Both the position numbers and the translations under genes were made by a program. 64,000 nt of DNA from Palleronia sp. LCG004 (GTDB lineage Bacteria > Pseudomonadota > Alphaproteobacteria > Rhodobacterales > Rhodobacteraceae): the NCBI RefSeq assembly GCF_032931615.1, contig NZ_CP136762.1, forward strand, positions 1 to 64,000, given 5' to 3'. Below, in pieces: positions 45,170 to 63,479 of this stretch (position 1 is its first letter; every line of letters begins with the position of its first letter). Below the pieces are notes generated by a model, which was not told where the DNA came from, ran no database searches, and saw nothing but the letters and a program-made list of their open reading frames with translations.

Positions 45170-45988
45170 TCACGCGCCGATCACGAGAGGTGCCGTCAGC
45201 CGCCTCAGGGTCGAGATCACGCTCAGCGGGGTGATCCTGCTCGTCCGCGGATTGTCGGGCGATGGCATGCCCTCGATCTGCACGCTGATCGTCGCGCTGT
45301 CGGAGATCACCGTGACGGCATGGATATTCCGGGTGACCCCGGGGTCCGCCCAGACTTCGAGCCGGGTGTCGGCAGCGCCGATGCCCGCGAAACCGAGGGT
45401 GGCGGCGACATTCACATTGGCGGGAAAGCCCGCGATGGCGTCTTCGACCGGACCGGCATAGCAGCAAACCGGTTCCGTGAGCGCGTCGAGATCCAGTCCC
45501 ATCTGCGCGATCGCCGGTGCGCCCTTCAGGCTTGCCGGTGGCTTGCGGGTGACGAGGGTTATGCTGTCGATCCGACCCAGCGCCGCGGCCTGCACCGCAT
45601 CCAGCCCGGCAAGCGCGCCCGACGGGACCAGGATGCGCCCTCCGGTGCGCAGAGCGACGGCCTCCAGATGTCGATTGTGCAGCAGCGCGCCCGTACTGGC
45701 GACCACGAGGATCTTGCCGGCCTCCAGAGCCGGAAGGGCGACGGTCTCGAACAGGTGTGCCGGGCAACATTCGACGACCACATCGACGCCATCGGAGAGG
45801 CATTCCAGCGGCCTGACCTCGGAGGGGGTGCCGAAATGCGCGGCCATATGCGCCCGGGCGCGTCCCGTATCGCGCGCAGATACCGCGGCGAGTTCCAGCC
45901 CCGGGATGCCGGCGTCGAGAGCGGCCGCCACCGTCCTGCCGATAGCCCCGAACCCGCCGACGGAGACCCTGAGCGTCTTTTCCTTCAT
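45170..45988 (-). CDS. L-aspartate dehydrogenase family protein
   Basis: NAD(P)-dependent enzyme of 272 aa related to NadX, which oxidises L-aspartate to iminoaspartate or oxaloacetate and ammonia. The dinucleotide motif GGFGAIGRTVAAAL opens the chain; LVTRKPPASLKGAP, FPANVNVAATLGFAG and the catalytic-His segment ADPGVTRNIHAVTV match the family. The start at 45988 has AAGGTGAC upstream. It is on the same strand as the sugar-kinase/dehydrogenase/transport genes but 189 bp downstream of them, so co-transcription is likely but not certain. No nadA or nadC is nearby, which favours a catabolic role over NAD synthesis. Confidence 0.85.
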   Translation of the reverse strand: MKEKTLRVSVGGFGAIGRTVAAALDAGIPGLELAAVSARDTGRARAHMAAHFGTPSEVRPLECLSDGVDVVVECCPAHLFETVALPALEAGKILVVASTGALLHNRHLEAVALRTGGRILVPSGALAGLDAVQAAALGRIDSITLVTRKPPASLKGAPAIAQMGLDLDALTEPVCCYAGPVEDAIAGFPANVNVAATLGFAGIGAADTRLEVWADPGVTRNIHAVTVISDSATISVQIEGMPSPDNPRTSRITPLSVISTLRRLTAPLVIGA

Positions 45989-46177
45989 GTCACCTTCCCC
46001 TGGAGTGATCGGTCTTTGCGAACTGTCGGCACGCTGAAAACTTGAGGTGAGCGGCAGCCGGGCCTGAGCCCCGCGAATGTTTCGGCCAGCGTTCCCATTT
46101 CCTCGGCCAGCCGGTCGCCGTTCATATTCCGGCCGCTGGCACGATTGCATCTGGAAGATTGGTTTTGCCGTTTTCCG

Positions 46178-47095
46178 TCACGAGAGCTGCCCGGTCGGTG
46201 GTGGCGTCGTGGCCTGCGCCAACAGCGTCACGTAGCGCAGCGCGGTTTCGATCTGTCGGTCCGTCTCCTCGGCACCGAGAAGGAGGAGGGCGTCGAGGGC
46301 GCGTCCGTAGGCCGTCCGGCTGTCGCAGGCGATTTCGATCCCTTCGGAAGTCACGTCCGTGCGCCCTTCGATCTGCACCCATGCGCGATTTTCACGGGCC
46401 GCGAGGTCGATGATCACCTCCGAGCGACGTCCATCGCGATGTGTCAGGCGAAAGCGGGCATCGCTTGGACCCAGGCGAAGGAGGTCGAGCGCGATCACCG
46501 GCCCCATGAGCCTTTCGAGAACCGACAGAGCGTGCGGCCCGATATCCATGAGCGCACCCGCCTCGGCCCGGCGCCATTCCGAAGCCGCATAAGGGCCCGA
46601 GATCAGGGCATCGGAGGCGTGGCGATACGTCGCCGACGTAACCTCGCCCGTGGCACCGAGGGCATCGAGCCGCCCGGTCAGGTCCGGCGCGAACATCAGC
46701 GTGTGAAAGACAAGCGCTTGCACGCCCGCGGCCCGGATCGCCCCGGCGACCAGCCGGGCATCCCCGGCAGAGGAGGCCAGCGGCTTTTCCAGCATCAGGT
46801 GGCATCCCGCCCGCGCCGCACGCGGTGCGAGGGACGCCTGGGCGGCCGGTGCCACTGCAAAAGCCACGATATCGGTCGCCTCGAATAAGGCATCGGCGCT
46901 CTCGAAGGCTGGCACCCCGTACAGATCCGCCAATGCGGCGGACGTATCCCGGTCGCGGCCCCACACACCTGCAAAGCGCAGTCCGGGATGGGCGGCTATG
47001 GCGGGCGCATGGGTCTTTCCCGCCCAATGGCCTGCGCCGACGAGGCCCATGCGCAAAGCCGGGCGCGATCCTCCGCCATCCGAAGAGCCGATCAT
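46178..47095 (-). CDS. Gfo/Idh/MocA-family oxidoreductase
   Basis: NAD(P)-dependent sugar dehydrogenase-like protein of 305 aa. The Rossmann motif GLVGAGHWAGKTHAPAI is followed by LMLEKPLASSAGDARLV, carrying the EKP motif with its cofactor-linked Lys, and by a beta-sheet C-terminal domain (DIGPHALSVLERLMG with a conserved His). Members oxidise or epimerise sugars, inositols and N-acetyl amino sugars. Its ATG overlaps the stop of the ROK kinase gene by 4 bp, so both enzymes probably act on the same sugar. Confidence 0.9.
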   Translation of the reverse strand: MIGSSDGGGSRPALRMGLVGAGHWAGKTHAPAIAAHPGLRFAGVWGRDRDTSAALADLYGVPAFESADALFEATDIVAFAVAPAAQASLAPRAARAGCHLMLEKPLASSAGDARLVAGAIRAAGVQALVFHTLMFAPDLTGRLDALGATGEVTSATYRHASDALISGPYAASEWRRAEAGALMDIGPHALSVLERLMGPVIALDLLRLGPSDARFRLTHRDGRRSEVIIDLAARENRAWVQIEGRTDVTSEGIEIACDSRTAYGRALDALLLLGAEETDRQIETALRYVTLLAQATTPPPTGQLS

Positions 47096-48042
47096 ACGCT
47101 CTGCCTCATCTGGTGGCCGAGGATGGCCCCACCGACCAGCGCGGCCTGATCGATCCGGCCGGGATAGAGGACAGGCTCATCCCGTTCTGACAGGATGCGC
47201 TTGCGCAGACCCTTGTCGAGCTCGGCCATCAGGGCCGCATCGCGCCCCAGCCCGCCGCCGGTGGCCACGATGGACGCGCCGGTGATGTTCACGGCCAGCG
47301 CCAGCGGCTCGGAGAGCATCTCCACCCAGAGAGCGATTGTCTTCGCCGCCTCGGCATCGCCAGTGCGCCACCGGTCGGTGATCTCGTGGCTCTTTGCCGG
47401 GGCGAAGCCGATCATCTCGTGAAGTCGCTCGAGCCCACGTGCCCCGCCGAACGTATCGGCGCACCCCTCCTGCCCGCAGCCGCAGCGCATCCGGGGCAAT
47501 GGACGGTCCAGCGTTCGGGGCAGCTGGTTCGCCACGGGCCCGTGGCCCCATTCGCCGACCAACCCGCCGCGGCCGCGGACGACCCGCCCGTCGACGACCA
47601 GCCCGCCGCCGATCCCCGTCCCGAGGATCGCCCCGAAGACGACCCGGTGTCCGCGTCCCACCCCCTGACCGGCCTCGGCCAGCGCGAAGGCGTCGGCATC
47701 GTTCAGAAGGCCGACAGGTCGCTGAAGCCGTGCGGAGAGGATCCGGCAGACGGGTTTGTCGTCGAGGCAGGGAATGTTCGCCGACCGGATCGTGCCCGTC
47801 GCCGCGTTGCAGAGCCCCGCCGCCGCAAGAATGAGCGGCGCGGTCGCGTCGACCTCGCCCGCGAGTTCCGCCGTCAGCACGCTCAATGAGTCGAGAAAGG
47901 CGGCGATATCCTCGGTCGGCGTGGGGCAGGTGCGGACCTTGCCGACCTCGCCGGGGCGGGTGCCGACGGCGGCCATGCGGATGAAGGAGCCGCCGATATC
48001 CGCGACGAGGATGCGGTTCGGCGGCAAAAGCGTCTCGGTCAT
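47092..48042 (-). CDS. ROK-family sugar kinase (N-acetylglucosamine kinase-like)
   Basis: ATP-dependent hexose/amino-sugar kinase of 316 aa. The phosphate-binding motif VADIGGSFIRMAAV, the catalytic Asp in LLNDADAFALAEAG, GTGIGGGLVVDG, EWGHGPV and the zinc-binding CGCGQEGC are all present, so it should be an active kinase, unlike the ROK regulator at 51548. EWGHGPV is typical of GlcNAc/glucose kinases. Four-base overlaps join it to the permease gene before it and the Gfo/Idh gene after it; it presumably phosphorylates the sugar released from the imported compound. Confidence 0.9.
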   Translation of the reverse strand: MTETLLPPNRILVADIGGSFIRMAAVGTRPGEVGKVRTCPTPTEDIAAFLDSLSVLTAELAGEVDATAPLILAAAGLCNAATGTIRSANIPCLDDKPVCRILSARLQRPVGLLNDADAFALAEAGQGVGRGHRVVFGAILGTGIGGGLVVDGRVVRGRGGLVGEWGHGPVANQLPRTLDRPLPRMRCGCGQEGCADTFGGARGLERLHEMIGFAPAKSHEITDRWRTGDAEAAKTIALWVEMLSEPLALAVNITGASIVATGGGLGRDAALMAELDKGLRKRILSERDEPVLYPGRIDQAALVGGAILGHQMRQSV

Positions 48043-48896
48043 CCTCGGCTCCTCGGGTCCAGCAGATCCCTAAGCCCGTCGCCGAGGATGTTGAAGCCGA
48101 GCACCGTGATCGTCACGGCAAGACCCGGAAAGAGCGAAACCCAGAGCGCCACCCCCAGGAAGTTGCGGCCATTGCTCATCATGGCGCCCCATTCGGGAAT
48201 GGGGGGTTGCGCGCCGAGGCCGAGGAACGACAGGCTGGCCGCCGTCAGGACCACCGTGCCCGCCGTCAGCGTCGATTGCACGATGATGGGTCCGAGGGCG
48301 TTGCGCAGGATATGATCGAACATGATGCGGACGTTCGATGCCCCGAGCGCGCGCGCGGCCTGAACATATTCCATCTCGCGCAGGCTGAGGGTCAGGTTGC
48401 GCGTGAGCCGCGCATAGACCGGCACCGAGAAGACGGCGATGGCCAGCAGCATGTTCACCAGTCCCGGCCCGAGGATCGAGACGATCAGGATGGCGAGGAC
48501 GATGCCCGGAAACGCGAAGATGACATCCGTCACCCACATGATGAGACCATCGATCCGTCCGCCGTAATATCCCGCGACAAGCCCGAGCGGCACGCCAGCG
48601 ACGACGGCGATCCCCGTCCCCAGCAGCACCTCGATCAACGAGAGTTGCGCGCCGTAAAGGATGCGCGAGAAGATGTCGCGGCCGAAGGAATCGGTGCCGA
48701 ACAGGTGCTCGCCCGACGGCGGGAGAAGCGTCTGCAACAGGCTCTGCTCATAGGGCGAGGCCGGTGCGAGCAGCGGCGCGAACAGGGCCGCGAGCACGAT
48801 CAGCCCGATCAGGAAACCGCCGATGAAAAGCGACGGCCTGCGTCCGAGCCAGCGGCTCCAGTCGACGAGACGGGGCAAAGCGATCGACTGCATCAT
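48039..48896 (-). CDS. ABC transporter permease (DppC/OppC family)
   Basis: Inner-membrane permease of 285 aa with about six helices. An N-terminal OppC_N segment (WLGRRPSLFIGGFLIGLIVLAALFAPLLAP) and FGTDSFGRDIFSRILYGAQLSL are typical; the ATPase-coupling EAA loop is EYVQAARALGASNVRIMFDHILRNALGPI. The ATG at 48896 overlaps the stop of the upstream permease by 4 bp; the longer open frame is not used. It works with the second permease, the binding protein (49878-51404) and the ATPases encoded across the divergent promoter. Confidence 0.92.
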   Translation of the reverse strand: MMQSIALPRLVDWSRWLGRRPSLFIGGFLIGLIVLAALFAPLLAPASPYEQSLLQTLLPPSGEHLFGTDSFGRDIFSRILYGAQLSLIEVLLGTGIAVVAGVPLGLVAGYYGGRIDGLIMWVTDVIFAFPGIVLAILIVSILGPGLVNMLLAIAVFSVPVYARLTRNLTLSLREMEYVQAARALGASNVRIMFDHILRNALGPIIVQSTLTAGTVVLTAASLSFLGLGAQPPIPEWGAMMSNGRNFLGVALWVSLFPGLAVTITVLGFNILGDGLRDLLDPRSRG

Positions 48897-49813
48897 CCGA
48901 ACCTCACCCGCGGATCGAGGGCGGAAATGAGCAGTTCCGCCGTGAAGTTGACCAGTACGACGCTGACGACCGCGAGCATCGTCACACCCTGGATGATCGG
49001 GTAATCCCGATAGCGAACGGCATCGACAAGCATCTGTCCAATGCCCGGCCAGTTGAAGACGGTCTCCGTCACGACGGTCGAACCGATCACCGCGCCGAAG
49101 TTCAGCCCGATGATCGTGACGATGGGTATCAAGGCGTTGCGCAGCGCGTGCCTGCGATAGACGCGAAACGCGCTCAGGCCCTTGGCCCGCGCGGTGCGGA
49201 TGTAATCCTGCCCCAGTGTCTCGATCATAGAGGACCGCGTCATCCGCGCCACGAGCGCCATCGGCAGCAGGCCGAGGGCGATGGCGGGCATGACGTAATG
49301 CGCCGGGGAGCCGTCGCCCAGAAGCGGAAGCCATCCCTTCTGGACCGAGAAGTAATCCATCATCACCAGAGCGAGCCAGAAATTGGCGACCGAAGCACCG
49401 AGGATGGCGATGATCATCACGATCTGGTCGATTGTCCGCCCTCGCCAGATGGCCCCGGCCATGCCGAGCGGCACGCCCAGCAAGGTCGCGAAGAAATAGG
49501 CCACGCTGGCCAGTCGCAGGGTCGCCATGAAGCGCGGCGCGAGTTCTTCAGAAACCGATCTGCCGGAGCGGATGGAGGTGCCGAAATCGCCGGTCGCGGC
49601 ATTGCCGAGAAACTTCGCGTATTGAAGGATGATCGGCTGGTCCAGACCCAGCCGGATCCGCATGTTGTCGACGGCGGCCTGCGTCGCCTCGGGGCCGGCC
49701 ATCAAGCGTGCGGGATCGCCGGGCAGCATCCGCACCGACAGGAAGACGATAAAGGAAACGCCCAGCAGGACGATCGGCAGCATCATCGATTTCCGAAGGA
49801 AATAGCGCTTCAT
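48893..49813 (-). CDS. ABC transporter permease (DppB/OppB family)
   Basis: Inner-membrane permease of 306 aa with about six helices. The start MKRYFLRKSMMLPIVLLGVSFIVFLSVRMLPGDPARLMAG is typical of the DppB family, and the EAA loop is DYIRTARAKGLSAFRVYRRHALRNALIPI. The ATG at 49813 is chosen on this N-terminus. It follows the binding-protein gene after a 64-bp gap containing a hairpin, and overlaps the second permease gene by 4 bp. Confidence 0.92.
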   Translation of the reverse strand: MKRYFLRKSMMLPIVLLGVSFIVFLSVRMLPGDPARLMAGPEATQAAVDNMRIRLGLDQPIILQYAKFLGNAATGDFGTSIRSGRSVSEELAPRFMATLRLASVAYFFATLLGVPLGMAGAIWRGRTIDQIVMIIAILGASVANFWLALVMMDYFSVQKGWLPLLGDGSPAHYVMPAIALGLLPMALVARMTRSSMIETLGQDYIRTARAKGLSAFRVYRRHALRNALIPIVTIIGLNFGAVIGSTVVTETVFNWPGIGQMLVDAVRYRDYPIIQGVTMLAVVSVVLVNFTAELLISALDPRVRFG

Positions 49814-49832
49814 CGCAGGCCTCGGGAATGGC

Positions 49833-49860
49833 GGGGCGGAACCGGGCGCGGCTCCGCCCC
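49833..49860 (-). promoter_or_regulatory. Hairpin between binding-protein and permease genes
   Basis: On the leftward transcript GGGGCGGA pairs with TCCGCCCC and inner GCCG with CGGT (one G-T pair), a 12-bp stem with a 4-nt loop. There is no T run after it. Likely an mRNA-stabilising or attenuating element protecting the binding-protein message. Confidence 0.7.
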
Positions 49861-49877
49861 TTTGCAGGGTCTCGGTC

Positions 49878-51404
49878 TCATTCCGTGATCGAGGCGTCCT
49901 CAACCATCAGAAGGCCGCCGGGCTGCAGCCAGAGCCCCTCGACCTCGGAACTGGCCGCGGCGAGATCGCGGGTGGAATAGAGCAGCACGTGCGGCGCTTC
50001 CTCGTTCACGATCTCCTGCGCTTCGACGTAGAGGGCGTTGCGCTGGGTCGCATCCAGGGTCGCCGCAGCCTCATCCACCAGAGCATCGAGCTCCTCGGAG
50101 GAGAAGAAGCCCAGATTGGCACCCGTAGGGGCCCAGGCACCGGTGGTGTAGAGCGGGCGGAACTGCAGGTCGGCATTGACCGAACCGCTGGACCACGACG
50201 CGATCACGGCACCGAGATCGTCTTCGGCCTTGGCCTCGGGCCCGTTGAACGCCGCTTCCGACCAAACACCGCTTTCGAGGCGGCGCACCTCGAGATCCAC
50301 GCCGATCTCGGCCCACATGGCTTGCAACGCTTCGGCGATCGCCGCCTCGGGCTCCTGCACGGCGACGGACATGGAGAAACCATTGCCGAGCCCGGCGTCC
50401 TCGAGCAGCGACCGCGCCATTTCGGGATCGTAGGGATAGGGATTGAGGCTTTCATCCCATGCGGGGTTTGTCGGAGCGAGCGGGGAGTTCGCCGGGGTGC
50501 CGTATCCGCGCAGCAGCGCCTCGACCAGTGCCTCGCGATCCGTGGCATAGTTCAGCGCCTGACGTACCGATTTCTGGTCGAGCGGTTCAAGCTCGACATT
50601 CAGCGACACCCAGAAGACGAATGCGCCGGGCTGATCGATGAGTGTCAGATCGGGATTGGCCGAGACCGCCTGCGCGAAGACCGGTGGCAGGGGATTGACC
50701 ACGTCGACTTCGCCGGATTGCACACCCATGGTGAGGACAGAGCTTTCGGCGGACCAGGTGAATACGATTTCGTCGAGGGACGGAGCGTCGCCCCAATAGC
50801 CGTCGAAGGCCTGCATGGTCACGTGATCGCCGGACTGATACTCGGTGAACTCGAACGGTCCCGTGCCGACGGCGTGGGTGCCCAGCTCCCCGGCCGCGGG
50901 GCTCACCACCCAGCCGACCGATGTCGCCATCAGATCCGCGAAGCCCGCGTAAGGCCGGGCCAGCGTGAAGCGGACGGTCGACGGATCGACGGCCTCGACA
51001 CGCTCCAGCAAACCGGTGATCTTGCCCGCCGCGGCAAGGCCGAGCTCGGGATTGAGAAGCCGCTCGAACGATGCGGTCACGGCATCGGCATCGAGGGGCG
51101 TGCCGTCGTGAAACTGCACATTCTCGCGGAGCGTGAACGTCCACGCGAGGCCGTCGTCGCTGGTCTCCCACTCGGTTGCGAGGGCGGGTACGATCTCAAG
51201 CTCGCGATTGCGTTCGATCAGGCCCTCGTACATCGGCGCGAGGACCACCTGCGTGAACGAGGCCGTCTGGTCGGCCGGATCCATGGAGCGCGGTGCCTCG
51301 CTTTGCATGACCGTCAGTGTCTGCGCCTCAGCGGCCCCGAGAGCGAGAAGCGACGCGGCTCCCGCAAGAGCGATGCGCCCCAATCCCTTTTTCTTCGCGA
51401 ACAT
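49878..51404 (-). CDS. ABC transporter substrate-binding protein, family 5 (peptide/nickel/oligosaccharide type)
   Basis: Periplasmic receptor of 508 aa with a signal peptide (about residues 1-28, ending LALGAAEA). Landmarks of the family 5 binding proteins are APMYEGLIERNRELEIVPALATEWETSDDGLAWTFTLRENVQFHDGTPLDADAV and the KSVRQALNYATDREALVEALL helix. Family members bind di- and oligopeptides, but also glycosides, opines and oligosaccharides, so the ligand is open. The ATG at 51404 is chosen because GGAG lies 6 bp upstream; an ATG 6 bp earlier touches that site. It is first in the leftward operon. Confidence 0.92.
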   Translation of the reverse strand: MFAKKKGLGRIALAGAASLLALGAAEAQTLTVMQSEAPRSMDPADQTASFTQVVLAPMYEGLIERNRELEIVPALATEWETSDDGLAWTFTLRENVQFHDGTPLDADAVTASFERLLNPELGLAAAGKITGLLERVEAVDPSTVRFTLARPYAGFADLMATSVGWVVSPAAGELGTHAVGTGPFEFTEYQSGDHVTMQAFDGYWGDAPSLDEIVFTWSAESSVLTMGVQSGEVDVVNPLPPVFAQAVSANPDLTLIDQPGAFVFWVSLNVELEPLDQKSVRQALNYATDREALVEALLRGYGTPANSPLAPTNPAWDESLNPYPYDPEMARSLLEDAGLGNGFSMSVAVQEPEAAIAEALQAMWAEIGVDLEVRRLESGVWSEAAFNGPEAKAEDDLGAVIASWSSGSVNADLQFRPLYTTGAWAPTGANLGFFSSEELDALVDEAAATLDATQRNALYVEAQEIVNEEAPHVLLYSTRDLAAASSEVEGLWLQPGGLLMVEDASITE

Positions 51405-51547
51405 AACCATCTCCAATCCGTCCAAGTTGCGCCCTGCTTGAGGGTGCGGGCCAAGATTTAATTCCTATGCAGGTTATACATCGCTTGATTTAGTTATATC
51501 TGTAAAGTAAAAACACGAGTGATGTTCAGATTTGGAATTAACTCAAG
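51405..51547. promoter_or_regulatory. Divergent promoter region of the Dpp/M81 locus
   Basis: 143 bp between the binding-protein and ROK-repressor genes. The central part (about 51455-51545) is strikingly AT-rich for this genome, as expected for two back-to-back promoters. Perfect 8-bp inverted sequences TTAATTCC (51458-51465) and GGAATTAA (51534-51541) flank it symmetrically and may mark repressor-binding ends. Confidence 0.6.
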
Positions 51548-52702
51548 ATGATCCAGACTGGAGATCATCATCGCAGGCTGCTCTGGGCGCTGTCGGAGGC
51601 CGGACAGGCGAGCCGGACGGAACTCGCCGCCGCGGCAGGGCTTTCGAAGGCCGCCGTGACAGCCGCCACGCGTGAGCTCATCGGGTCCGGATTGATCGCC
51701 GAGGCCGAGCAGGTGCGCCGCGCCGGTCGGCCCTCGACGCTCCTCACGCTTCGCAGCGGCGCTGTCTGGTTCGCGGGGCTGTCCCTCCGGCCGGGCCGCG
51801 GCCGAATCGTCCTGTGCGACATGAAAGGACACATCGCGGGGCGACGCGATCTGCCGGGGCGACGCGACCCCCATGAGATCTGCGCCACGCTGGAAAGCGA
51901 TCTGGAGGCCCTTCTCGCCGATTGCGGCGTCGAGCGCGACGCGGTCTACGGGATGGGAATTTCGATCTCGGGCGTGGTCAGCCCCGAACAGGATGTGTGT
52001 ATCCGCTCCACGTTGATGGGCTGGAACGACGTCCCGCTGGGGCGCATGGCGACGGCGGCACTCGGCATGCCGGTTCTCATCGAGAACGACGCCAACGCCC
52101 TGGCGATCCACGAGAAACTCTTCGGCGGAATCTCCGGGGATTCCCTTGCGCTCGTCAGCGTGGGTGTCGGCATCGGCGGGGCGCTCTTCATCGGGCGGCA
52201 ACTCTTTCGCGGTGCCGCAGGCGGTGCGGGCGAGTTCGCCCATATCACCGTGGCCCCCGGCGGCGCGCCCTGCATCTGCGGAAAGCGCGGCTGCCTCGAT
52301 ACCGTCGCGAGCATGCGCGCCGTCGCCACCGCCGCCGAGGAGGCAGGCCTCGAAGAGACCTCGCTCGACGCGCTGGAGCGGGCGGCAGCCCACCGGGGCG
52401 ACAGCCGGGCGATCGCGATCCTGCACCGCGCGGGAGAGGCGCTCGGCCTCGCGCTGGCGCATCTCATCCAGATCGTGAACCCGGGGCATGTCATCGTCCG
52501 GATGGAAGCGGATACCGTGGACGGCCTCTACGCGACGGCACTGGCACAGTCGCTCGACGCCAACGTCCTGCCGCAGATGCGCGAACGCACCGCTCTCGAT
52601 GTCGGCACCGCGCTCGAGGGTGGACATGCCGCCGGCGCGGCCTCGGTGGCGGCGCACAGGCTGCTCCTCACTCCCAACACGAAACAAAGGAAGATGGCAT
52701 GA
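51548..52702 (+). CDS. ROK-family transcriptional repressor (NagC/XylR type)
   Basis: Regulator of 384 aa. A winged helix at the N-terminus (about 8-65, LLWALSEAGQASRTELAAAAGLSKAAVTAATRELIGSGLI) precedes a ROK sugar-binding domain with GMGISISGVVSPEQ, ENDANALAIHEKLFGG and the zinc motif CICGKRGCLD. The ATP-binding DxGGT loop is replaced by GLSLRPGRGRIV, so it is a sensor and not a kinase. It is divergent from the binding-protein operon and starts the rightward operon, so it probably represses both until a sugar or sugar phosphate binds. Its stop overlaps the next start by 4 bp. Confidence 0.9.
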   Translation: MIQTGDHHRRLLWALSEAGQASRTELAAAAGLSKAAVTAATRELIGSGLIAEAEQVRRAGRPSTLLTLRSGAVWFAGLSLRPGRGRIVLCDMKGHIAGRRDLPGRRDPHEICATLESDLEALLADCGVERDAVYGMGISISGVVSPEQDVCIRSTLMGWNDVPLGRMATAALGMPVLIENDANALAIHEKLFGGISGDSLALVSVGVGIGGALFIGRQLFRGAAGGAGEFAHITVAPGGAPCICGKRGCLDTVASMRAVATAAEEAGLEETSLDALERAAAHRGDSRAIAILHRAGEALGLALAHLIQIVNPGHVIVRMEADTVDGLYATALAQSLDANVLPQMRERTALDVGTALEGGHAAGAASVAAHRLLLTPNTKQRKMA

Positions 52703-54132
52703 GAGTTGCCGTAGGTGGCCTCCACACCGAATGCTCGACCTACAATCCCGTTCTGATGACCGAGGGCGATTTCACCGTCTGGCGCGGAGACGAGATGATC
52801 GGGAAGCCGTATTTCGACGTGCTCAAGCGGCACGAAGCGGAGTATCTGCCAACCTTCTACGCCCGCAATATCGCAGGCGGGCCTATCGCCCGTGAAACAT
52901 ACGAAAGCTTCAAGGCCGAGTTCGTCGCAGCACTCACGGCAGCGCTCCCACTCGACGGGCTCTATCTGGCCATGCACGGGGCACTCTTCGTCGAGGACAT
53001 GGAAGACGCCGAGGGTGACTGGATCTCGAGCGCCCGCGAGGTGGTGGGCGAAGACTGCGTGATCGCGGCCAGCTACGACCTGCACGGCAATCTCTCCCAG
53101 CGGATCATCGATGCGCTGGACGTCTATTCCACCTACCGGACGGCCCCGCATATCGACATTCCCGAGACCCAGGCGCGGGCCGTCGACATGCTCTTCCGCG
53201 CATTGGCCGGCGAGCGGCCGGGCATCGTCTGGGCCCCCATTCCGGTGGTGCTGCCCGGAGAGCGGACGTCGACGGAGGACGAACCGGCCAAGTCCCTCTA
53301 TGCCCGCCTGCCGGATATCGACGCGGTCGAGGGGATCTGGGATGCCTCGCTGAATGTCGGATATGTCTGGGCGGACGAGCCCCGCGCCACGGCCGCGGCG
53401 ATCATGACGGGTACGGACATCCCCGCCCTCAAGGCCGCGGCCGAAAAGCTGGCGCAGGCCTATTGGGACGCCCGGGACGATTTCTCTTTCGGCACGCAGA
53501 CGGGCAGCATCGTAGAGTCGGTCAGCGCAGCGCTGGCCAGCGCCACTCATCCCGTGGTCCTCGCAGAAAGCGGCGACAACCCCACGGGCGGCGGCGTCGG
53601 TGACCGGGCCGAAGTCCTGTCGGAATTGCTCGATCAGGGGGCGACCGATGTGGTCTTCGCCGGCATCTGCGACAAGCCCGCGGTCGATGCGTGCTTCGCT
53701 GCCGGCGAAGGTGCGCGGATTCCGCTTTCCATCGGTGCGACGCTCGATCCCGGCTCCACCCCATGGAAGGGCGAGGTCGTCGTCAAAACGCTCGCCGACG
53801 ATCCCGCACCCCAGTTGCGCCAGGCCGTCGTCACGATCGAGGGCGTCACCCTCGTTCTGTCGGCCAGACGACGACCTTACCACGATATCGCGAATTTCAC
53901 CGCGTTGGGCCTGGACCCGGCCGCGGCAAGGATCGTCGTGGTCAAGTCCGGATACCTCTCTCCCGAACTGGCGCCGCTCGCGAACCCGCCGATCATGATC
54001 CTGTCGTCAGGCGTGGTCGATCAATACGTCGAGCGGTTGGAGCGGCACCGCAAGGCGGTCGAGACATACCCGTTCGACACGGGCTTCGCCTACGTCCCCG
54101 AGGCACGGCCTTCGGCGCGGGCCAAGCCGTGA
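52699..54132 (+). CDS. M81-family metallohydrolase (MlrC-like)
   Basis: Zinc-dependent hydrolase of 477 aa. The N-terminal MlrC domain opens MRVAVGGLHTECSTYNP and holds SYDLHGNLS, TYRTAPHIDIPETQ and the C-terminal domain has SGDNPTGGGVGD and RRPYHDIANF; the conserved Asp and His residues are the expected metal ligands. MlrC cuts linearised microcystin peptides; most relatives in transport operons have no known substrate but act as amidases or peptidases. Here it is flanked by 4-base overlaps with the repressor and the first ABC ATPase, so it very probably cleaves the imported compound in the cytoplasm. Confidence 0.92.
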   Translation: MRVAVGGLHTECSTYNPVLMTEGDFTVWRGDEMIGKPYFDVLKRHEAEYLPTFYARNIAGGPIARETYESFKAEFVAALTAALPLDGLYLAMHGALFVEDMEDAEGDWISSAREVVGEDCVIAASYDLHGNLSQRIIDALDVYSTYRTAPHIDIPETQARAVDMLFRALAGERPGIVWAPIPVVLPGERTSTEDEPAKSLYARLPDIDAVEGIWDASLNVGYVWADEPRATAAAIMTGTDIPALKAAAEKLAQAYWDARDDFSFGTQTGSIVESVSAALASATHPVVLAESGDNPTGGGVGDRAEVLSELLDQGATDVVFAGICDKPAVDACFAAGEGARIPLSIGATLDPGSTPWKGEVVVKTLADDPAPQLRQAVVTIEGVTLVLSARRRPYHDIANFTALGLDPAAARIVVVKSGYLSPELAPLANPPIMILSSGVVDQYVERLERHRKAVETYPFDTGFAYVPEARPSARAKP

Positions 54133-55118
54133 CCGAGGCCTCGATCCTCAAGGTCGAGGATCTCTCGACGACCTTCCGGACGGAACATGGATCCGTCCCG
54201 GCCCTCACTGCGGTCAGCTTCGATATCCGGCCGGGCGAAACGCTGGCGGTGGTGGGGGAGAGCGGTTCCGGCAAGAGCGTCACCGCGCTGTCGATAATGC
54301 GGCTGCTGGACAGAAACGCCCGGATCGATGCCGCCACTCTCAGCTTCAGGCGGCGCGACGGCAGTCGCGCCGAACTGGTGCGCGCCACCGAGAAGGAAAT
54401 GCGGGGGATCCGGGGCAACGAGATCGGCATGATTTTCCAGGAGCCGATGACATCGCTCAATCCGGTTCTCACGGTCGGCGACCAGATCGGCGAGGCCGTC
54501 ATCCAGCACCGGAAGATGTCGCGAGGCCAGTTGCGCCAGGAGGTCCTCGAGCTTCTTCGCCTCGTCGGCATTCCGGCGCCCGAGCACCGGGTCGATCAGT
54601 ATCCCCACCAGATGTCCGGTGGCATGCGCCAGCGCATCATGATCGCCGTGGCGCTGGCGTGCCGGCCGAACCTGCTGATCGCCGACGAGCCGACCACGGC
54701 CCTCGATGTCACCATACAGGCACAGATCCTGCGGCTGCTGAACCGGCTGAAGGCCGAACTCGGCATGTCGATCCTGTTCATCACCCACGATCTCGCGGTC
54801 GTGTCCGAGATCGCCGACCGGGTCGTGGTCATGTATGGCGGATCCGTTCTCGAGCAGGGCACGGTCGACGACGTGCTGACACGCCCCGTCCATCCCTACA
54901 CCCGCGGCCTTCTCGCCAGCCTGCCGAGCGGGTCCGGCGCGCGCCTCAAGGCGATCCGCGGAACCGTTCCCGCACCGGCCGACCGGCCCGCGGGCTGTCT
55001 CTTCGCTCCGCGCTGCGATCACGCGCGGGAGCTCTGCGAAGCCAGCCGCCCGGACCTGACCGACCGCGGCGAGGGCCATCCGTCCCGGTGCATCCGCAGC
55101 CCGGAGCTCTTCCCATGA
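54129..55118 (+). CDS. ABC transporter ATP-binding protein (DppD/OppD family)
   Basis: ATPase of 329 aa. Walker A is GESGSGKS, the signature is MSGGMRQR, Walker B is [12 protein letters not shown] and the switch His follows in [11 protein letters not shown]-terminal oligopeptide/dipeptide domain (about 235-325, [14 protein letters not shown]) carries the cysteines that in relatives hold an iron-sulfur cluster. The start is a GTG at 54129 overlapping the previous stop by 4 bp. It pairs with the next ATPase to power the divergent permeases. Confidence 0.93.
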
Positions 55119-56074
55119 ACGACACGCTTCTGCAGATCGACGATCTGAAAGTGCATTTCGCCGTGCCCGGCGGCACGGTGCGCGCCGTCGACGGCGTCAG
55201 CTTCGATATCCGGCGCGGCGAGGTTCTGGGCGTCGTCGGCGAGAGCGGATCGGGAAAATCGACCGTGGGCCGCGGCATCCTGCGTCTGGAAACGCCCACG
55301 GACGGCAGCATCCGGTTCGACGGGACGCATATCCACAACCTGCCCGAGACGCAGTTCCGCGCCTACCGGCGGCGGATGCAGTATGTCTTCCAGGATCCCT
55401 ACGCCTCGCTCAATCCGCGCAAGCGTGTCGATGCCCTCATCGGCGAGGCGCTTTCGATCCACTCGATCGGCTCCCGGTCCAGCCGTCCCGGCCGGATCGC
55501 GGAACTGCTCGAACAAGTGGGACTGCCCAAGTCGGCCATGTCGCGCTATCCCCACGAATTCTCAGGGGGGCAGCGTCAGCGGATCGGCATCGCACGGGCG
55601 CTCGCCGTCGAGCCGGAATTCATCATCGCGGACGAGCCTGTCTCGGCGCTCGACGTCAGCGTTCAGGCACAGGTCGTCAACCTTCTGCAGGATCTCCAGC
55701 GCGACCTCGGATTGACGATGCTCTTCATCGCCCACGATCTGAGTGTGGTGGAGCATCTCTGCGACAGGGTCGTCGTTCTGTATCTCGGCAAGGTGATGGA
55801 GATCGGCACGCGTTCCCAGATATACGGGAACCCCCGGCATCCCTACACGCGGGCCCTTCTCGCAGCCGCGCCGAAAGTCGGGAAAAGGCCGCAGGACACC
55901 CCCATCGTCGAAGGGGATATCCCTTCTCCCATGGCCCCGCCGTCGGGATGCGTCTTCCGGACGCGGTGTCCGCTGGCCACCGATGCCTGCGCCAGTGCAG
56001 TCCCCCCGCTCGAGCGTCTCGGCGAGGGCCACAAGGCCGCGTGCATCCATCTCGACCGGACTGCGGAATCGTGA
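55115..56074 (+). CDS. ABC transporter ATP-binding protein (DppF/OppF family)
   Basis: Second ATPase of the transporter, 319 aa. Walker [10 protein letters not shown], signature FSGGQRQR, Walker [13 protein letters not shown] and switch His in FIAHDLSVV are intact. The C-terminal domain with [14 protein letters not shown] is typical. The ATG at 55115 overlaps the stop of the first ATPase by 4 bp; cutC follows after 43 bp. Confidence 0.93.
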
Positions 56075-56117
56075 TCGGCGCGCGGAAACACGTGCCCGGA
56101 TTGCGGCAAGAACGGGT

Positions 56118-56837
56118 ATGAGCCGGACGCTGGAAATCTGCGTCGACAGCCATGCGGGGCTGATGGCGGCCGTCACGGGCGGTGCCCACCGGATCGAACT
56201 CTGCGCGGCGCTGGCGCTCGGCGGACTGACCCCGTCCGAGGCGCTGATGCGGGCCGCGGCACGCTGCCCTGTGCCCGCCTATGCCATGATCCGTCCGCGC
56301 GACGGCGATTTCCTCTTCTCGGACGAGGAACTGTCCGACATGGAGACGGAGATCGATCGCGCCCGCGCGCTCGGCCTCGCAGGCGTCGTGCTGGGCGCGG
56401 GCTCAGGCGACGGGCTCGATCTCGGCGCGCTCGACCGCCTTGCGAAGCGCGCCGAAGGTATGGGGCGCACCCTCCACAGGGTGATCGACTTGCTTCCCAC
56501 CCCCGCCACCGCTCTCGGCAGTGTCGCAGATCTGGGGTTCGAGCGGGTGCTCACCTCCGGCGGCGCGGTGACGGCCCCCGAGGGTGCCGCGACGATTGCC
56601 GAGATGGTGCGCGCCGCGCCGCCGGGCCTGTCGATTATGGCCGGCAGCGGAATCAGACCCGAAAACGCGGCCGAACTGATCGCCGCAACCGGAGTTCGCG
56701 AGATCCACAGCTCGGCCTCCGCGGCCGCGTCACCGCCCGACGCCGATCTGGTGCGCCTCGGCTTCGCCCCCACCAATGCCCGACGTACCGATCCCGAAGC
56801 AGTCGCCCGCCTGTCCCGTGCCCTGACCTCCGTCTGA
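56118..56837 (+). CDS. cutC: CutC family protein
   Basis: TIM-barrel protein of 239 aa. The family segments LEICVDSHAGLMAAVTGGAHRIELCAALALGGLTPS, VPAYAMIRPRDGDFLFSDEEL, TLHRVIDLLPTP, FERVLTSGGAVTA and IMAGSGIRPENAAEL are all clear. CutC was named for copper homeostasis in E. coli, but that role has been questioned, and many cutC genes sit with sugar-catabolic genes. As the last gene of an operon with an M81 hydrolase and a peptide-type transporter, a role on the imported compound, perhaps as a lyase or isomerase, is more likely than copper handling. Confidence 0.9.
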   Translation: MSRTLEICVDSHAGLMAAVTGGAHRIELCAALALGGLTPSEALMRAAARCPVPAYAMIRPRDGDFLFSDEELSDMETEIDRARALGLAGVVLGAGSGDGLDLGALDRLAKRAEGMGRTLHRVIDLLPTPATALGSVADLGFERVLTSGGAVTAPEGAATIAEMVRAAPPGLSIMAGSGIRPENAAELIAATGVREIHSSASAAASPPDADLVRLGFAPTNARRTDPEAVARLSRALTSV

Positions 56838-57013: not shown

Positions 57014-57658
57014 TCACCAGTCCACTTCGAACGTCGTGACCAGCGCGGATACCTGCGCGTCGGTCAGCCGGCGCGGCGACAGGGTGCGGGTCATCATTGC
57101 CAGCCTGGCCCCGGCCTCGAGCTCCTCGATGGCGTGCACCGCAGCTTCCAGATCCTTCCCCGCGACCACGGGGCCGTGATTGGCGAGCATCACCGCCGAC
57201 CGCTTTCCGGCAAGGCCGCGGATCGCATCGCCGATGCAAGGATCCCCGGGCATGAAGTAGGGCAGCAGCTTGACCCGCCCGAGCTTCATGATCGGGTAGG
57301 GGGTCAGCGGGGGGAGGAAGTCGTCGGCGTCGACATCGGGCATCATCGAAAGCGCGACCGAATGGCAGGAATGCAGGTGCACGATGGCACCTGCCTTGCT
57401 GCGGGTCTCGTAGAAGGCCGAGTGCAGCGGCATTTCCTTGGTCGGCTTGTCGCCATCGACGTGGAGCATGCCTGCGTCGAACAGGCTCAGACGCGCCGGA
57501 TCGAGCGTCATGAAGGACGAGCCCGTGGGCGTCACCAGAAGACCGCCATCCGGCGTACGGACCGAGATGTTCCCGGTCGAGCCATGGGTCAGCCCCTGGT
57601 CGTAGAGCGTCGCGGCATACGTACAGACCTGTTCGCGAAGGCGTGCCATCTCGCTCAT
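57014..57658 (-). CDS. otnC: Class II aldolase/adducin protein, OtnC-like (3-oxo-tetronate 4-phosphate decarboxylase)
   Basis: Metal-dependent enzyme of 214 aa. The phosphate-binding GSTGNIS and TPTGSSF, the metal ligands in HLHSCHSVALS and the third His in LANHGPVVAG are intact. OtnC enzymes decarboxylate 3-oxo-tetronate 4-phosphate to dihydroxyacetone phosphate, the last step of erythronate/threonate catabolism. Its ATG overlaps the kinase stop by 4 bp, the usual otnK-otnC pairing. It is the last gene of the operon. Related aldolases acting on branched sugar acids cannot be excluded. Confidence 0.87.
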   Translation of the reverse strand: MSEMARLREQVCTYAATLYDQGLTHGSTGNISVRTPDGGLLVTPTGSSFMTLDPARLSLFDAGMLHVDGDKPTKEMPLHSAFYETRSKAGAIVHLHSCHSVALSMMPDVDADDFLPPLTPYPIMKLGRVKLLPYFMPGDPCIGDAIRGLAGKRSAVMLANHGPVVAGKDLEAAVHAIEELEAGARLAMMTRTLSPRRLTDAQVSALVTTFEVDW

Positions 57659-58908
57659 GGTCTTGCCTCCAGCATCGCCAGTGCGGTCTCGAAAAAGTCG
57701 ACATCGCCGAAATTGCCCGACTTGAGCGCCAGCACGAGAGGCCGGCCTTCCGCCGCCACTGCGGGAACGCCCGGCGTGATCTCGGGCCCGATGCGCAGGG
57801 CGGTCAGACCAAGCCCCTCGACGACCGCGCCCGACGTTTCGCCCCCTGCCGTCACCAGCCGCCGGACGCCGTTGGCGACAAGCAACCGCGCGGTCTCGGC
57901 AAAGAACGCTTCGAGCCGTCCCGCGACGATCTCGCGACCGTATTTCTCCTGGGCGGCCTTCACCGTCGCGGGATCGGCGGAAGAGTAGAGCAGGAGGGGG
58001 CTGTCGCTTTCGAGTGCGGCGCCGACGGCCTCGTCCGGGGTGACGCGGCCTTCCATGACCTCATCGGCGGTGATCTCCAGTGCCGGATGCCGCTCGCGCC
58101 AGCGGGCGATCTGGGCACGCGTCATCGTCGAGGCGGAGCCTGCGATCAGAGCCGCGGGACCCGCCTCTCCGCGCCAGTCTCCCTCGACCGAATAAAGGGC
58201 ATCCGCGCCCAGCAAGTTGACCGGAAGCCCCATCGCGACGCCGGACCCGCCGGTGATGAGCGGCACACCATCGGCGGCGGCACCGATTGCACGCAGATCC
58301 GCGTCGTTGATCGCGTCGATGACGACCAACGGGCGACCGGCCTCGGTCTCCGCCCGAACCGCGGCCAGTATGGCGTCGGGGCCTTCCGCGACGGTGCCGG
58401 CGGCGACATGCCCGACCCCACGCTCCGACTGGCGCGCCAGCCAGCGCCGGATGTCGGGATCGGTCATCGGGGTCAGCGGATGATGTTCCATCCCCGATTC
58501 CGAAAGCAGTTTGTCCTGTACGAAAAGGTGGCCCTGGTAAACGGTTCGCCCCGTTGCCGGGAAAGCGGGGCAGACGATCGCCGTCTCGGTACCGAGGCGT
58601 TCCATCAGGGCCTCGATCACCGGACCGATATTTCCCTGGGGCGTCGAATCGAAAGTCGAGCAATACTTGAAGAAGAACTGCGTGCAGTCCTGCGCGATCA
58701 GCCAGTCGAGCGCCTCGAGCGACCGGCGCACCGCGTCCTCTACCGGCATCGTGCGGGTTTTGAGCGCGACGACGCCGGCATCGACATCGGCCGGTGCGTT
58801 GCCTTCCGGAACGCCCGAGAACTGAATGACGCGCATCCCGTTCTTGGCAAGCATCGATGCAAGGTCCGACGATCCGGTGAAATCGTCACCGATGCATCCG
58901 AGTTTCAT
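57655..58908 (-). CDS. otnK: Four-carbon acid sugar kinase, OtnK-like (3-oxo-tetronate 4-kinase)
   Basis: DUF1537-family kinase of 417 aa. The N-terminal sugar-binding domain begins GCIGDDFTGSSDLASML and has FFKYCSTFDSTPQGNIGP; the C-terminal nucleotide-binding domain has RLVTAGGETSGAVVEGL and KSGNFGD. OtnK phosphorylates 3-oxo-tetronate at C4. Close relatives act on D-threonate or on 3-oxo-isoapionate, so the exact substrate is uncertain. It starts 39 bp after tctA and overlaps otnC. Confidence 0.88.
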   Translation of the reverse strand: MKLGCIGDDFTGSSDLASMLAKNGMRVIQFSGVPEGNAPADVDAGVVALKTRTMPVEDAVRRSLEALDWLIAQDCTQFFFKYCSTFDSTPQGNIGPVIEALMERLGTETAIVCPAFPATGRTVYQGHLFVQDKLLSESGMEHHPLTPMTDPDIRRWLARQSERGVGHVAAGTVAEGPDAILAAVRAETEAGRPLVVIDAINDADLRAIGAAADGVPLITGGSGVAMGLPVNLLGADALYSVEGDWRGEAGPAALIAGSASTMTRAQIARWRERHPALEITADEVMEGRVTPDEAVGAALESDSPLLLYSSADPATVKAAQEKYGREIVAGRLEAFFAETARLLVANGVRRLVTAGGETSGAVVEGLGLTALRIGPEITPGVPAVAAEGRPLVLALKSGNFGDVDFFETALAMLEARP

Positions 58909-58947
58909 GATCGGGCTCCCTGTCGTGTCGAACTCATGGGCGACCCG

Positions 58948-60447
58948 TCACGAGTCGCGGGTTTCGGTGACGGCTTCCGTCGGGCGGCGAAGCAGCGGCA
59001 GGACCACCGTCATCAGCACCAGCAGGATGGCGGTCGCAAGAAGGATGGCGCTGATCGGCCGATCCAGGAACACGGACCAGTCGCCGCGGGACATCGCCAG
59101 CGATCGGCGCAGTTCGCTCTCGGCGATCGGTCCGAGCACGACCCCGAGAATGATCGCGACGAGGGGGAAGCCCACCTTCTCGAGCAGGAACCCCGCGAGG
59201 CCAAAGCCCAGCATGAGCCAGACATCCATCATCGAGTTCTGAACAGAGTAGGTGCCGACTATACAGCAGATCACGATGATCGGCCCGAGCACCGAGTAGG
59301 GCACGTCGAGCATCTTGGAAAGCAACGCGATGAACGGCTTCGAGAACACGAGGATCAGCAGGTTGACGATCAGCAGACCGACGAACACGGCATAGATCAG
59401 GTCGGTATTGCCGGTCATGAAGGTCGGACCCGGGGTCAGGCCGTGAACGATGAATGCGCCGAGGATGACCGCGGTGGTACCCGAGCCGGGGATGCCGAGC
59501 GCGAAAAGCGGGACGAGCGCGCCCATCGCCGCGGCGTTGTTGGCGGCTTCCGGGGCCGCGACGCCTTCCGGCGCGCCCTTCCCGAAGCGCGAGCGGTCCT
59601 TCGACCAGCGGACGGTTTCCGAATAGGCCACCATCGCTGCGGTCGACGCGCCGATACCAGGCAGGATGCCGATGGCCGTGCCCAGAATGGACGAGCGCAG
59701 GATCGCGCCGCGGACCTGCCGGATCACCGGCCAGTCGAAGATGCGGATCTTGAACTTCTTGCTGTCCAGGTGGACATCCCCCTCCTGGCTTCGCTTGAGC
59801 ACCTCGGAAATTGCGAAGAGGCCGATGATCACGGGGATCAGGTTGATACCGCTCATCAATTCGAGATTGCCGAACGTGAAGCGCTGCGTTCCGGTCAGCG
59901 GGTCGAGCCCGACGGAGGCGATGATCAGGCCGATGCAGACGCCGATCACGCCCATGATCAGGTTGCCCCCGAGGGAGGCCACGACAGTCAGTCCGAGCAC
60001 GGCGAGCGCGAAGAATTCGGGTGAGGAGAACTGCAGCGCGATGTTGGCCAGCAACGGCGTGGCCACGATCAGCACCACCGTGCCCAGAACGCCGCCGAGC
60101 GCCGAGGAGAGAATACCGATGCCGAGCGCCTTTCCGGCCTCTCCCTTCTGGGTCATCGGGTAGCCGTCGATAGCGGTCATCACCGCCTCGGGGGTGCCCG
60201 GGGCCCGATAGAGGATCGCCGTGATCAGGCCCGAGAAGACGCTCGAGGCATAGATCGCCGTAAGCAGCATGAAAGCACCGGTCGGCTCCATCGAATAGGT
60301 CACCGGCAACAGGATGACCACGAGGATCACGCCGCTGATCCCGGGCAAGGCCCCGCCGACAAAGCCGATCAGAACGGCGGATGCGAGGATCAGGAGGTTG
60401 ATCGGCTGGAGGACGACTCCGAAGCCGCCCATCAGATCGCTAAGCAT
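58948..60447 (-). CDS. tctA: TctA large permease (second Tct system)
   Basis: Inner-membrane permease of 499 aa, the normal TctA length, with about eleven membrane segments. Landmarks: GGALPGISGVILVVILLPVTYSM, LYRAPGTPEAVMTAIDGYPMTQKG, ILPGIGASTAAMVAYSE and FALGIPGSGTTAVILGA. Unlike the permease at 11634-13664 it is not fused to TctB, which is encoded just upstream. The ATG at 60447 has GGACAT upstream. It is part of the sugar-acid operon and should import the operon's substrate with TctC and TctB. Confidence 0.92.
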   Translation of the reverse strand: MLSDLMGGFGVVLQPINLLILASAVLIGFVGGALPGISGVILVVILLPVTYSMEPTGAFMLLTAIYASSVFSGLITAILYRAPGTPEAVMTAIDGYPMTQKGEAGKALGIGILSSALGGVLGTVVLIVATPLLANIALQFSSPEFFALAVLGLTVVASLGGNLIMGVIGVCIGLIIASVGLDPLTGTQRFTFGNLELMSGINLIPVIIGLFAISEVLKRSQEGDVHLDSKKFKIRIFDWPVIRQVRGAILRSSILGTAIGILPGIGASTAAMVAYSETVRWSKDRSRFGKGAPEGVAAPEAANNAAAMGALVPLFALGIPGSGTTAVILGAFIVHGLTPGPTFMTGNTDLIYAVFVGLLIVNLLILVFSKPFIALLSKMLDVPYSVLGPIIVICCIVGTYSVQNSMMDVWLMLGFGLAGFLLEKVGFPLVAIILGVVLGPIAESELRRSLAMSRGDWSVFLDRPISAILLATAILLVLMTVVLPLLRRPTEAVTETRDS

Positions 60448-60469
60448 GAAATGTCCTTTCAGCCGTCCG

Positions 60470-60955
60470 TCAGGGCAGCGGAATGTTGAGAAGCCGATCG
60501 AAGACAAGGGCGACGATGGCGACGGCTATCACGGTGTTGAGCACCACCCGCAGGGGCCGGCGCTCGCCGAGCACGACGGTCGCGGTCGCGGCAAAGATGG
60601 CGGTCGCCAGGAGGTAGCCGGTCAGCGCCATGATCAGCGAGTAGCCGAGCGCCAGCCCGAAGATCATCAGGTGGGGCCAGCGCCTGCCCGAGAGGTGGTC
60701 CCGCTGGACGGCGGCGTCGGGTTCGCTGCCCGAAACCTCGTCGGGGCCGGTGAACTGCTCAGCCCCCCGGGTCCAGAGCAGCAGCGCCATGACGACGACC
60801 AGCCCGAGCAGCAGCACCAGCACGCCGAACGGCCAGGTCCGCGGCCCGACGAGGGTAGATACCTCATGGCTCGCCGGGAACTGCGCCGCCTGCCAGAGAA
60901 AGCCGAGGCCGACGAAAAACGTGACGATCACGAAGATGGAGAGACGAGTCGACAA
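60470..60955 (-). CDS. tctB: TctB small permease (second Tct system)
   Basis: Small membrane subunit of 161 aa with four hydrophobic segments, typical of TctB. The best start is a TTG at 60955, with a strong AGGAGG 7 bp upstream; the alternative ATG further up (60994) lies on the far side of that ribosome-binding site. The gene sits between tctC and tctA, as in other tripartite tricarboxylate transporter operons. Confidence 0.85.
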   Translation of the reverse strand: MSTRLSIFVIVTFFVGLGFLWQAAQFPASHEVSTLVGPRTWPFGVLVLLLGLVVVMALLLWTRGAEQFTGPDEVSGSEPDAAVQRDHLSGRRWPHLMIFGLALGYSLIMALTGYLLATAIFAATATVVLGERRPLRVVLNTVIAVAIVALVFDRLLNIPLP

Positions 60956-60989
60956 GGCGGAACCTCCTGTCAGTACCTGATCCGAAGAT

Positions 60990-61019: not shown

Positions 61020-61027
61020 CGAAGGGA

Positions 61028-63452: not shown

Positions 63453-63479
63453 CCGGTCCTCCTCCAAGGGAATCGCGAT

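Follow-up and report, generated by a model that had tools for sequence, protein, structure and literature searches.

The first 64,000 nucleotides of contig NZ_CP136762.1 from Palleronia sp. LCG004 (assembly GCF_032931615.1, Rhodobacteraceae), hereafter the window, are part of a 178,248-bp contig (C4) in a 3.87-Mb genome of five contigs, and carry a locus in which a peptide-type ABC transporter is interleaved with a metallohydrolase of family M81, a sugar kinase and a repressor of the ROK family, and a CutC-family protein (Table 1). The genes form two divergent operons, separated by a gap of 137 bp. The leftward operon runs from a solute-binding protein (SBP) through DppB, DppC and the ROK kinase to a Gfo/Idh oxidoreductase and is followed, after 189 bp, by an aspartate dehydrogenase (AspDH); the rightward operon runs from the ROK repressor through M81, DppD and DppF to CutC, and a complete Dpp-type ABC importer is split over the two. 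All of these reading frames are open and their families are matched by NCBIfam and Pfam, which bears out the gene list, coordinates, families and 189-bp spacing given in an initial annotation made from the letters alone. Adjacent frames overlap by four bases at six junctions in the locus (Gfo/Idh and kinase, kinase and DppC, DppC and DppB, repressor and M81, M81 and DppD, where DppD starts with GTG, and DppD and DppF), and there is no overlap at the DppB/SBP or DppF/CutC junctions. Seven such overlaps had been counted; the seventh must be that of OtnC and OtnK at 57655-57658, beyond the span assigned to the locus and in the next, separate operon.

Table 1. Genes and intergenic region of the divergent locus, in window positions.
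Feature	Position	Strand	Basis
L-aspartate dehydrogenase, PRK13302 type; accessory	45170..45988	-	NCBIfam 312 bits, cut-off 253; Asp_DH_C domain
Gfo/Idh/MocA oxidoreductase; accessory	46178..47095	-	Pfam PF01408
ROK sugar kinase, NagK-like	47092..48042	-	Nearest solved structures, family matches
DppC-type permease	48039..48896	-	PF00528, OppC_N; start set by ATGA overlap (Pfam scan frame from 48881)
DppB-type permease	48893..49813	-	PF00528, PF19300
Family 5 solute-binding protein (SBP), GsiB/DppA-like	49878..51410	-	PF00496, 310 bits
Divergent promoter region, inverted repeat TTAATTCC 51458 / GGAATTAA 51534	51411..51547	.	Sequence of gap
ROK-family repressor, winged HTH + ROK domain	51548..52702	+	PF00480, PF13412
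M81 metallohydrolase, amino-sugar-linked subfamily (named M81a here)	52699..54132	+	PF07364, PF07171
DppD-type ATPase	54129..55118	+	PF00005, PF08352
DppF-type ATPase	55115..56074	+	PF00005, PF08352
CutC-family TIM barrel	56118..56837	+	PF03932, 219 bits

Relatives of the M81 gene were sought in one genome per species, the best 80 of 163 confirmed loci were kept, and these were scored with the window's own proteins, each gene being called by its best tblastn match. The nearest named M81 in this set, from Palleronia sediminis, is 83% identical. A divergent core, with ROK kinase, DppC, DppB and SBP on one side and ROK repressor and M81 on the other, is present in 25 of the 80 loci and in several genera, among them Rhizobium, Neorhizobium, Pseudochrobactrum, Brucella endophytica, Niveispirillum, Pantoea and Enterobacter. 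The gene arrangement is therefore more than chance, the conserved core bears out the earlier view of these genes as one functional unit, and the spread from Rhizobium to Pantoea and Enterobacter makes movement of the cassette between classes probable. CutC occurs in 16 of the 25 core loci and in none of the other 55, on the kinase's strand, the two matches lying 9 to 120 bases apart, and DppD and DppF follow M81 in 12 core loci. AspDH was detected in none of the 80 loci, and a Gfo/Idh of the window's type in one, Palleronia locus L033 (57% identity), where an M20 hydrolase stands in the place of AspDH after Gfo/Idh; within a second set of 30 loci, described below, both were found in the window alone. 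Transporter, kinase, repressor, M81 and often CutC thus constitute the conserved core, and AspDH and Gfo/Idh are lineage-specific additions. One locus (L075, JAHREI010000003.1) lies on a contig labelled Bacillus subtilis SK6B4; its cassette and flanks resemble those of Pseudochrobactrum locus L051, and the assembly is probably mislabelled or contaminated.

The M81 protein has both family domains and the fold of the microcystinase MlrC (7ylq) and of 3iuu, and M81 entries alone stand out in a structure search with its predicted model (pLDDT 82). It shares with MlrC of the mlr cluster the fold and a presumed set of metal ligands, but is 27% identical to it over the aligned fold and scores 133 bits against the microcystinase equivalog NF041767, for which the cut-off is 999. 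When 79 rows were placed in a maximum-likelihood tree, some outer branches of which are long enough to have drawn a warning from the tool, the M81a rows formed one clade of 61, including the actinobacterial one. The Dpp-core and Rhizobium loci fall in one branch (36 rows) and the GH20/NagA loci in another (21 rows); three rows are basal, among which L132 has ROK, NagA and CutC and L140 has Dpp genes. The residues E11, H93, D127, H129 and H151, which we take to be metal ligands from the role of the E, H, D, H, H set in MlrC and have placed by alignment, are kept in all 118 aligned M81a rows, a number that includes duplicates between collections, and are common to M81a and its paralogues, although four of the 18 paralogues have a gap at E11. 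Four other residues, E188, R229 and T296 (118/118) and R303 (116), differ in most of the 18 paralogues, R229 being kept in two of them. Because these residues are maintained throughout the subfamily, unlike in the paralogues, the alignment suggests one class of substrate for M81a whatever its neighbours. The subfamily is uncommon, with representatives in 19 of 394 genomes of the family, 3 of 387 of the class (both at E <= 1e-90) and 11 of 397 of the phylum (E <= 1e-80), the window's own genome being included in each count.

As a control, 30 M81a loci, the window's own and those of 29 genomes, were compared, over a reach of 10 kb, with 16 loci of other M81s from relatives, hand-picked, one locus each, from 30 genomes with a non-subfamily M81 match. 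CutC was found at 16 of the 30 M81a loci, a ROK kinase at 19, a GH20 enzyme at 15, NagA at 12 and NagB at 6, whereas none of these was found at any control locus. The Dpp components occur around the controls as well (DppB 9/30 versus 8/16, DppC 8/30 versus 7/16, SBP 9/30 versus 5/16). In this sample the sugar genes are therefore specific to the M81a subfamily, and a Dpp transporter beside an M81 gene means little.

M81a is also present in other gene settings, the sister loci. In Sinorhizobium-type megaplasmids and in Rhodobacteraceae the M81 orthologue (54-60% identical in the plasmid matches) follows a GH20 beta-N-acetylhexosaminidase. The order in Peteryoungia is RidA, MurR/RpiR, SDR, GH20, M81, MFS and CutC, and S. 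meliloti ml56 and Pararhizobium have the same order from RidA to MFS without CutC. Loktanella salsilacus has ROK and NagA on one flank and NagB on the other, with NagA and NagB above their curated cut-offs; the Loktanella Gfo/Idh gives no blastp match with that of the window. A further group, the members of which differ in gene content, runs from an AgaR-like regulator through AgaS, ROK, KbaZ/GatZ, NagA and GH20 to M81, with CutC and Gfo/Idh opposite, its three Aga assignments resting on loci L131 and L133 and lying below equivalog cut-offs. These M81a loci are amino-sugar operons. On a Streptantibioticus plasmid, an M81 that is 37% identical lies together with Dpp genes, a ROK regulator and CutC. 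Canonical nag and aga operons share a NagK-like kinase with the window and NagA, NagB, AgaS, KbaZ and GH20 with the sister loci; they differ in that M81 and CutC are added here and in that the window's importer is of the peptide rather than the sugar type.

The kinase had been read as one of amino-sugar type, and this stands. Among solved structures, the three that come closest (E 1e-37 to 1e-40) are the GlcNAc (N-acetylglucosamine) kinases 7p7i and 4db3 and the 'putative regulator protein' 2ap1, and it is 45% identical to the NagA-adjacent ROK protein of Loktanella; it would be expected to work like NagK, with phosphorylation of GlcNAc as the predicted reaction. The 6-phosphate of an N-acetylhexosamine (HexNAc-6-P) has an outlet in this organism, since the genome encodes NagA (240 bits) and NagB (246 bits), both above cut-off and side by side in another operon that also has a SIS protein and an apparent sugar ABC importer. 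The SBP scores 288 bits against the GsiB model, below its cut-off of 594, and its nearest structure is YliB (1uqw); the opine-binding proteins AgaA (6hlx, E 1e-45) and AccA (about 1e-35) are among the more distant, and these and the CntA model (125 of 800 bits) are all behind GsiB/DppA-type matches. Opines and Amadori compounds, which the initial annotation gave as alternatives, may thus still be candidate substrates. The repressor scores 143 and 139 bits against the Mlc and NagC models, below their cut-offs. Read by eye, the gap between SBP and repressor contains the inverted repeat GTTCA-N5-TGAAC in seven of 12 relatives, with one mismatch in L034, and this is likely the repressor's operator there; the gap of the window, likewise by eye, is without it.

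We propose, with a probability of about one half, that the locus is an inducible cassette for the uptake and breakdown of an amide conjugate of an N-acetylhexosamine, GlcNAc-like or possibly N-acetylmuramic acid (MurNAc). The sugar-plus-amide substrate of the initial annotation is thereby upheld and sharpened to N-acetylhexosamine, and its interpretation as a whole is partly supported, the aspartate half not being supported by the distribution of AspDH, the nearest orthologue of which is not beside M81. From the genes, their linkage, the conserved presumed ligands and the presence of NagA and NagB, all observed, we infer each reaction as follows. The Dpp-type importer would take in the conjugate intact, and cytoplasmic, metal-bound M81a would hydrolyse its amide bond, the type of bond being suggested by MlrC, to give the sugar and an amino acid or peptide. 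The NagK-like kinase, to which family and context point, would phosphorylate the sugar at O6, and NagA and NagB would deacetylate and deaminate the HexNAc-6-P. CutC, which travels with the kinase, may act on a phosphorylated sugar of the pathway, and the ROK repressor would sense the sugar and control both operons. AspDH would clear aspartate if this were the amino acid of the conjugate.

The copper role of CutC is disputed, and no other copper family is among the Pfam and NCBIfam matches of the cassette genes. The protein of the window belongs to the family by both its PF03932 domain and its CutC fold, for which the human structure is 3iwp. The folds nearest to its AlphaFold model (mean pLDDT 94.9) outside the family are mostly phosphate-binding barrels, and by Foldseek alone triosephosphate isomerase and MJ1099 rank next after the CutC entries. 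Its residues H120, R121 and D124 make up a conserved cluster. CutC is probably an enzyme of the amino-sugar pathway. A wider proposal, which we put forward tentatively and regard as somewhat doubtful, is that CutC acts in amino-sugar catabolism behind the HexNAc kinase, as an epimerase, isomerase, lyase or aldolase of phosphosugars, that M81a is an amidase class of its own, new and directed at N-acetylhexosamine conjugates, and that together they represent a new branch of amino-sugar scavenging, horizontally spread across proteobacteria and at least one actinobacterium.

Several observations weigh against an N-acetylhexosamine cassette. The kinase scores 172 bits against the NagK equivalog NF009835, for which the cut-off is 380. 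Eight of the 30 M81a loci are without ROK kinase and CutC within 10 kb, one of which (G498) has both about 13 kb away, and at several Rhizobium loci M81a lies beside a gamma-glutamyltransferase without kinase or CutC. GH20, NagA and NagB are all missing from 13 of the 30 loci, the window included; the Dpp-core loci hold none of them, and there is no GH20 in this genome, so the amino-sugar role of the window's cassette is carried over from the sister clade. The loci moreover share ancestry and mix related species, so the neighbour counts are not independent, and Fisher values for the comparison with the controls exaggerate its strength. Among the Rhizobium loci themselves, the gamma-glutamyltransferase adjoins M81a, with neither kinase nor CutC, in L118, L149, L152 and L153, the last of which also has DUF1028 and another Dpp set, and a GntR regulator stands behind M81 in others.

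Two of the rival explanations are special cases of the N-acetylhexosamine cassette. The first, not very likely, is that the conjugate is a glycosyl-asparagine (GlcNAc-Asn from N-glycoproteins), the kinase taking GlcNAc and AspDH taking aspartate, with GH20, at loci where it occurs, first trimming GlcNAc-GlcNAc-Asn. The alf-2 cluster of Lactobacillus casei does so for fucosyl-GlcNAc-Asn, in divergent operons, with an MFS permease, the glycosylasparaginase AsnA2, the ROK kinase SugK, the aspartate 4-decarboxylase AsdA and the M20 peptidase PepV (PMC6960285). Both loci have divergent operons, a transporter, a cytoplasmic amidase for sugar-amino acids (predicted in the window), a ROK kinase and an aspartate-consuming enzyme, the last two paired in the window as kinase and AspDH, and the M20 peptidase has its parallel at the AspDH position of Palleronia L033. 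The statement that no described pathway has this set of genes consequently needs qualifying, alf-2 being a functional analogue with an amidase of another family. It differs in having an MFS permease, glycosylasparaginase, GntR regulator and fucosidase where the window has Dpp, M81 and a ROK regulator, and CutC is not among the alf-2 genes listed.

The company kept by AspDH elsewhere is consistent with a glycosyl-asparagine: in a set of 198 genomes of the family, the closest orthologue (63%) has as neighbours an aminotransferase, an M20 peptidase and a different Dpp transporter, although the next (52%) has none of these neighbours by the proteins searched. A NadX-type role in NAD synthesis was considered for AspDH and rejected as unlikely: there is no NadA match in this genome, while 12 of 14 control genomes gave one, and the C-terminal domain of the sole full-length NadB-like match (C1:780936), together with the iron-sulphur subunit behind it, marks that protein as a succinate dehydrogenase flavoprotein. 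NAD synthesis from aspartate is thus probably beyond this organism, and AspDH may well be catabolic. Against a glycosyl-asparagine stand the absence of AspDH from all 80 relatives and from the second set outside the window, and the known enzyme, which is an autoprocessing glycosylasparaginase and not an M81 (PMC6960285); none is among the Pfam and NCBIfam matches, which cover the cassette genes alone. In L. casei, by the same paper, PepV is dispensable for growth and the activity of AsdA on aspartate is weak. A glycosyl-asparagine also leaves CutC without explanation. Aspartate as the defining product is thus rejected as conserved chemistry and kept as a local possibility.

The second special case, the scavenging of muropeptides (MurNAc-peptides), is unlikely. 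Here M81 would cut the lactyl-L-Ala amide like AmpD, the kinase would give MurNAc-6-P, an etherase would remove lactate, NagA and NagB would finish, and GH20, where present, would be the counterpart of NagZ. The gene run of G498 fits this: MurQ-like etherase, ROK, CutC, Gfo/Idh, sugar ABC, [DTA-M81b], RidA, RpiR, SDR, GH20 and M81a, where DTA is a pyridoxal phosphate (PLP) enzyme and M81b a second M81. The four GH20 N-termini read by eye are without a signal peptide, and an MFS permease follows M81a at those loci, as in the logic of AmpG and NagZ. Rhizobiales and Rhodobacterales are described as mostly without AmpG and as using an ABC importer for muropeptides (PMC9790009). That importer, YejBEF-YepA, is like the window's a peptide ABC importer taking sugar-peptides, but it is another transporter and works with AmpD and NagZ, which are present there, and M81, ROK kinase and CutC are not mentioned in the passages on it. 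At the other loci searched, no counterpart of the MurQ gene of G498 turned up, and no MurQ match was found in this genome, which argues against MurNAc recycling of the E. coli type (MurQ-independent routes lie outside this test). MurQ relatives can, moreover, be GlcNAc-6-P dehydratases (NagS, PMC12680351), and AspDH has no role in the scheme.

MurQ matches above 200 bits occur in 11 of 30 M81a genomes and in 1 of 16 controls (G095, with three more at 163-181 bits). They occur in 4 of the 16 genomes with CutC near M81a and in 7 of the 14 without, no firm pattern, in a tally that counts G498 as without CutC, though its CutC lies just outside the stretch. The idea that CutC stands in for the MurQ etherase, which came from the genome without MurQ, is weakened by G498, where a MurQ-like gene and CutC are in one operon. 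Neither GlcNAc-Asn nor a muropeptide is supported by genes conserved enough to decide the sugar's partner.

In the marine ong pathway for oxidised chitin, OngB removes the acetyl group of N-acetyl-D-glucosaminic acid (GlcNAc1A), and it is improbable that M81 does the same here. At Loktanella-type loci, GH20, RidA and MurR/RpiR are accompanied by a PLP enzyme whose domains are Ala_racemase_N and D-Ser dehydratase, a set close to OngA, OngD, OngR and OngC but without OngB and KdgK (PMC9537276), and MlrC cuts an amide at glutamate (Adda-Glu; PMC12474180). The ong cluster of Pseudoalteromonas (PMC9537276) shares GH20, MurR/RpiR, RidA and a fold-III-type PLP enzyme with the M81a sister loci; it differs from the window, which has none of these, and its enzymes, OngA-D and KdgK, include no ROK or CutC protein. 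OngB is a D-aminoacylase-type barrel, not an M81 (PMC12017989), and neither OngB nor OngC nor RidA is among the cassette genes. The DTA-type PLP enzyme occurs in 9 of the 30 loci, in none with the divergent Dpp core, and goes with M81b where M81b is found; a GlcNAc1A deacetylase activity of M81a is weakened by this absence from the Dpp-core loci. As a separate observation, the alphaproteobacterial loci L123 (a Loktanella salsilacus plasmid), L120, L121 and L124 combine GH20, RidA, MurR/RpiR and M81b, with a fold-III-type PLP enzyme in L123 and L120; they may correspond to the ong cluster, M81b then taking over from OngB.

An ordinary peptide importer with a peptidase and incidental sugar-gene neighbours, to which the frequency of Dpp transporters near M81 genes in general (DppB in 8 of 16 controls), the resemblance of the SBP to GsiB and YliB and some Rhizobium M81a loci with peptide-type neighbours alone would point, is the most improbable reading, as ROK kinase and CutC recur with M81a across genera and around none of the 16 control M81s, and the reading frames overlap.

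Two other features were observed in this genome. Beyond the locus, window positions 57014-63485 encode 3-oxo-tetronate 4-phosphate decarboxylase and 3-oxo-tetronate kinase, above their NCBIfam cut-offs, followed by TctA, TctB, TctC and a DRL-type oxidoreductase, and constitute an operon of their own for four-carbon acid sugars, complete with a tripartite tricarboxylate transporter. The genome has another, distantly related M81 outside the window (C4:73338-74192, L116:9326-10723; about 205 bits); the frame immediately before it carries an M19 membrane dipeptidase domain, and a LysR regulator is nearby.

In the open-licence literature, as covered by titles and abstract openings among the matches listed, nothing ties M81 or CutC to amino-sugar catabolism, and microcystin degradation is the one M81 function found. 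Two expression studies name both CutC and nagA (PMC3146418, PMC9234739), and the excerpt of a preprint (PMC13041923) mentions neither CutC nor M81. Operon linkage to a HexNAc kinase, NagA, NagB and GH20 gives M81 and CutC concrete roles that can be assayed. If the N-acetylhexosamine cassette is as proposed, it would add a route by which plant-associated and marine bacteria scavenge sugar-amide conjugates, and CutC, a family shared with humans and annotated as a copper-homeostasis protein, would be re-labelled.

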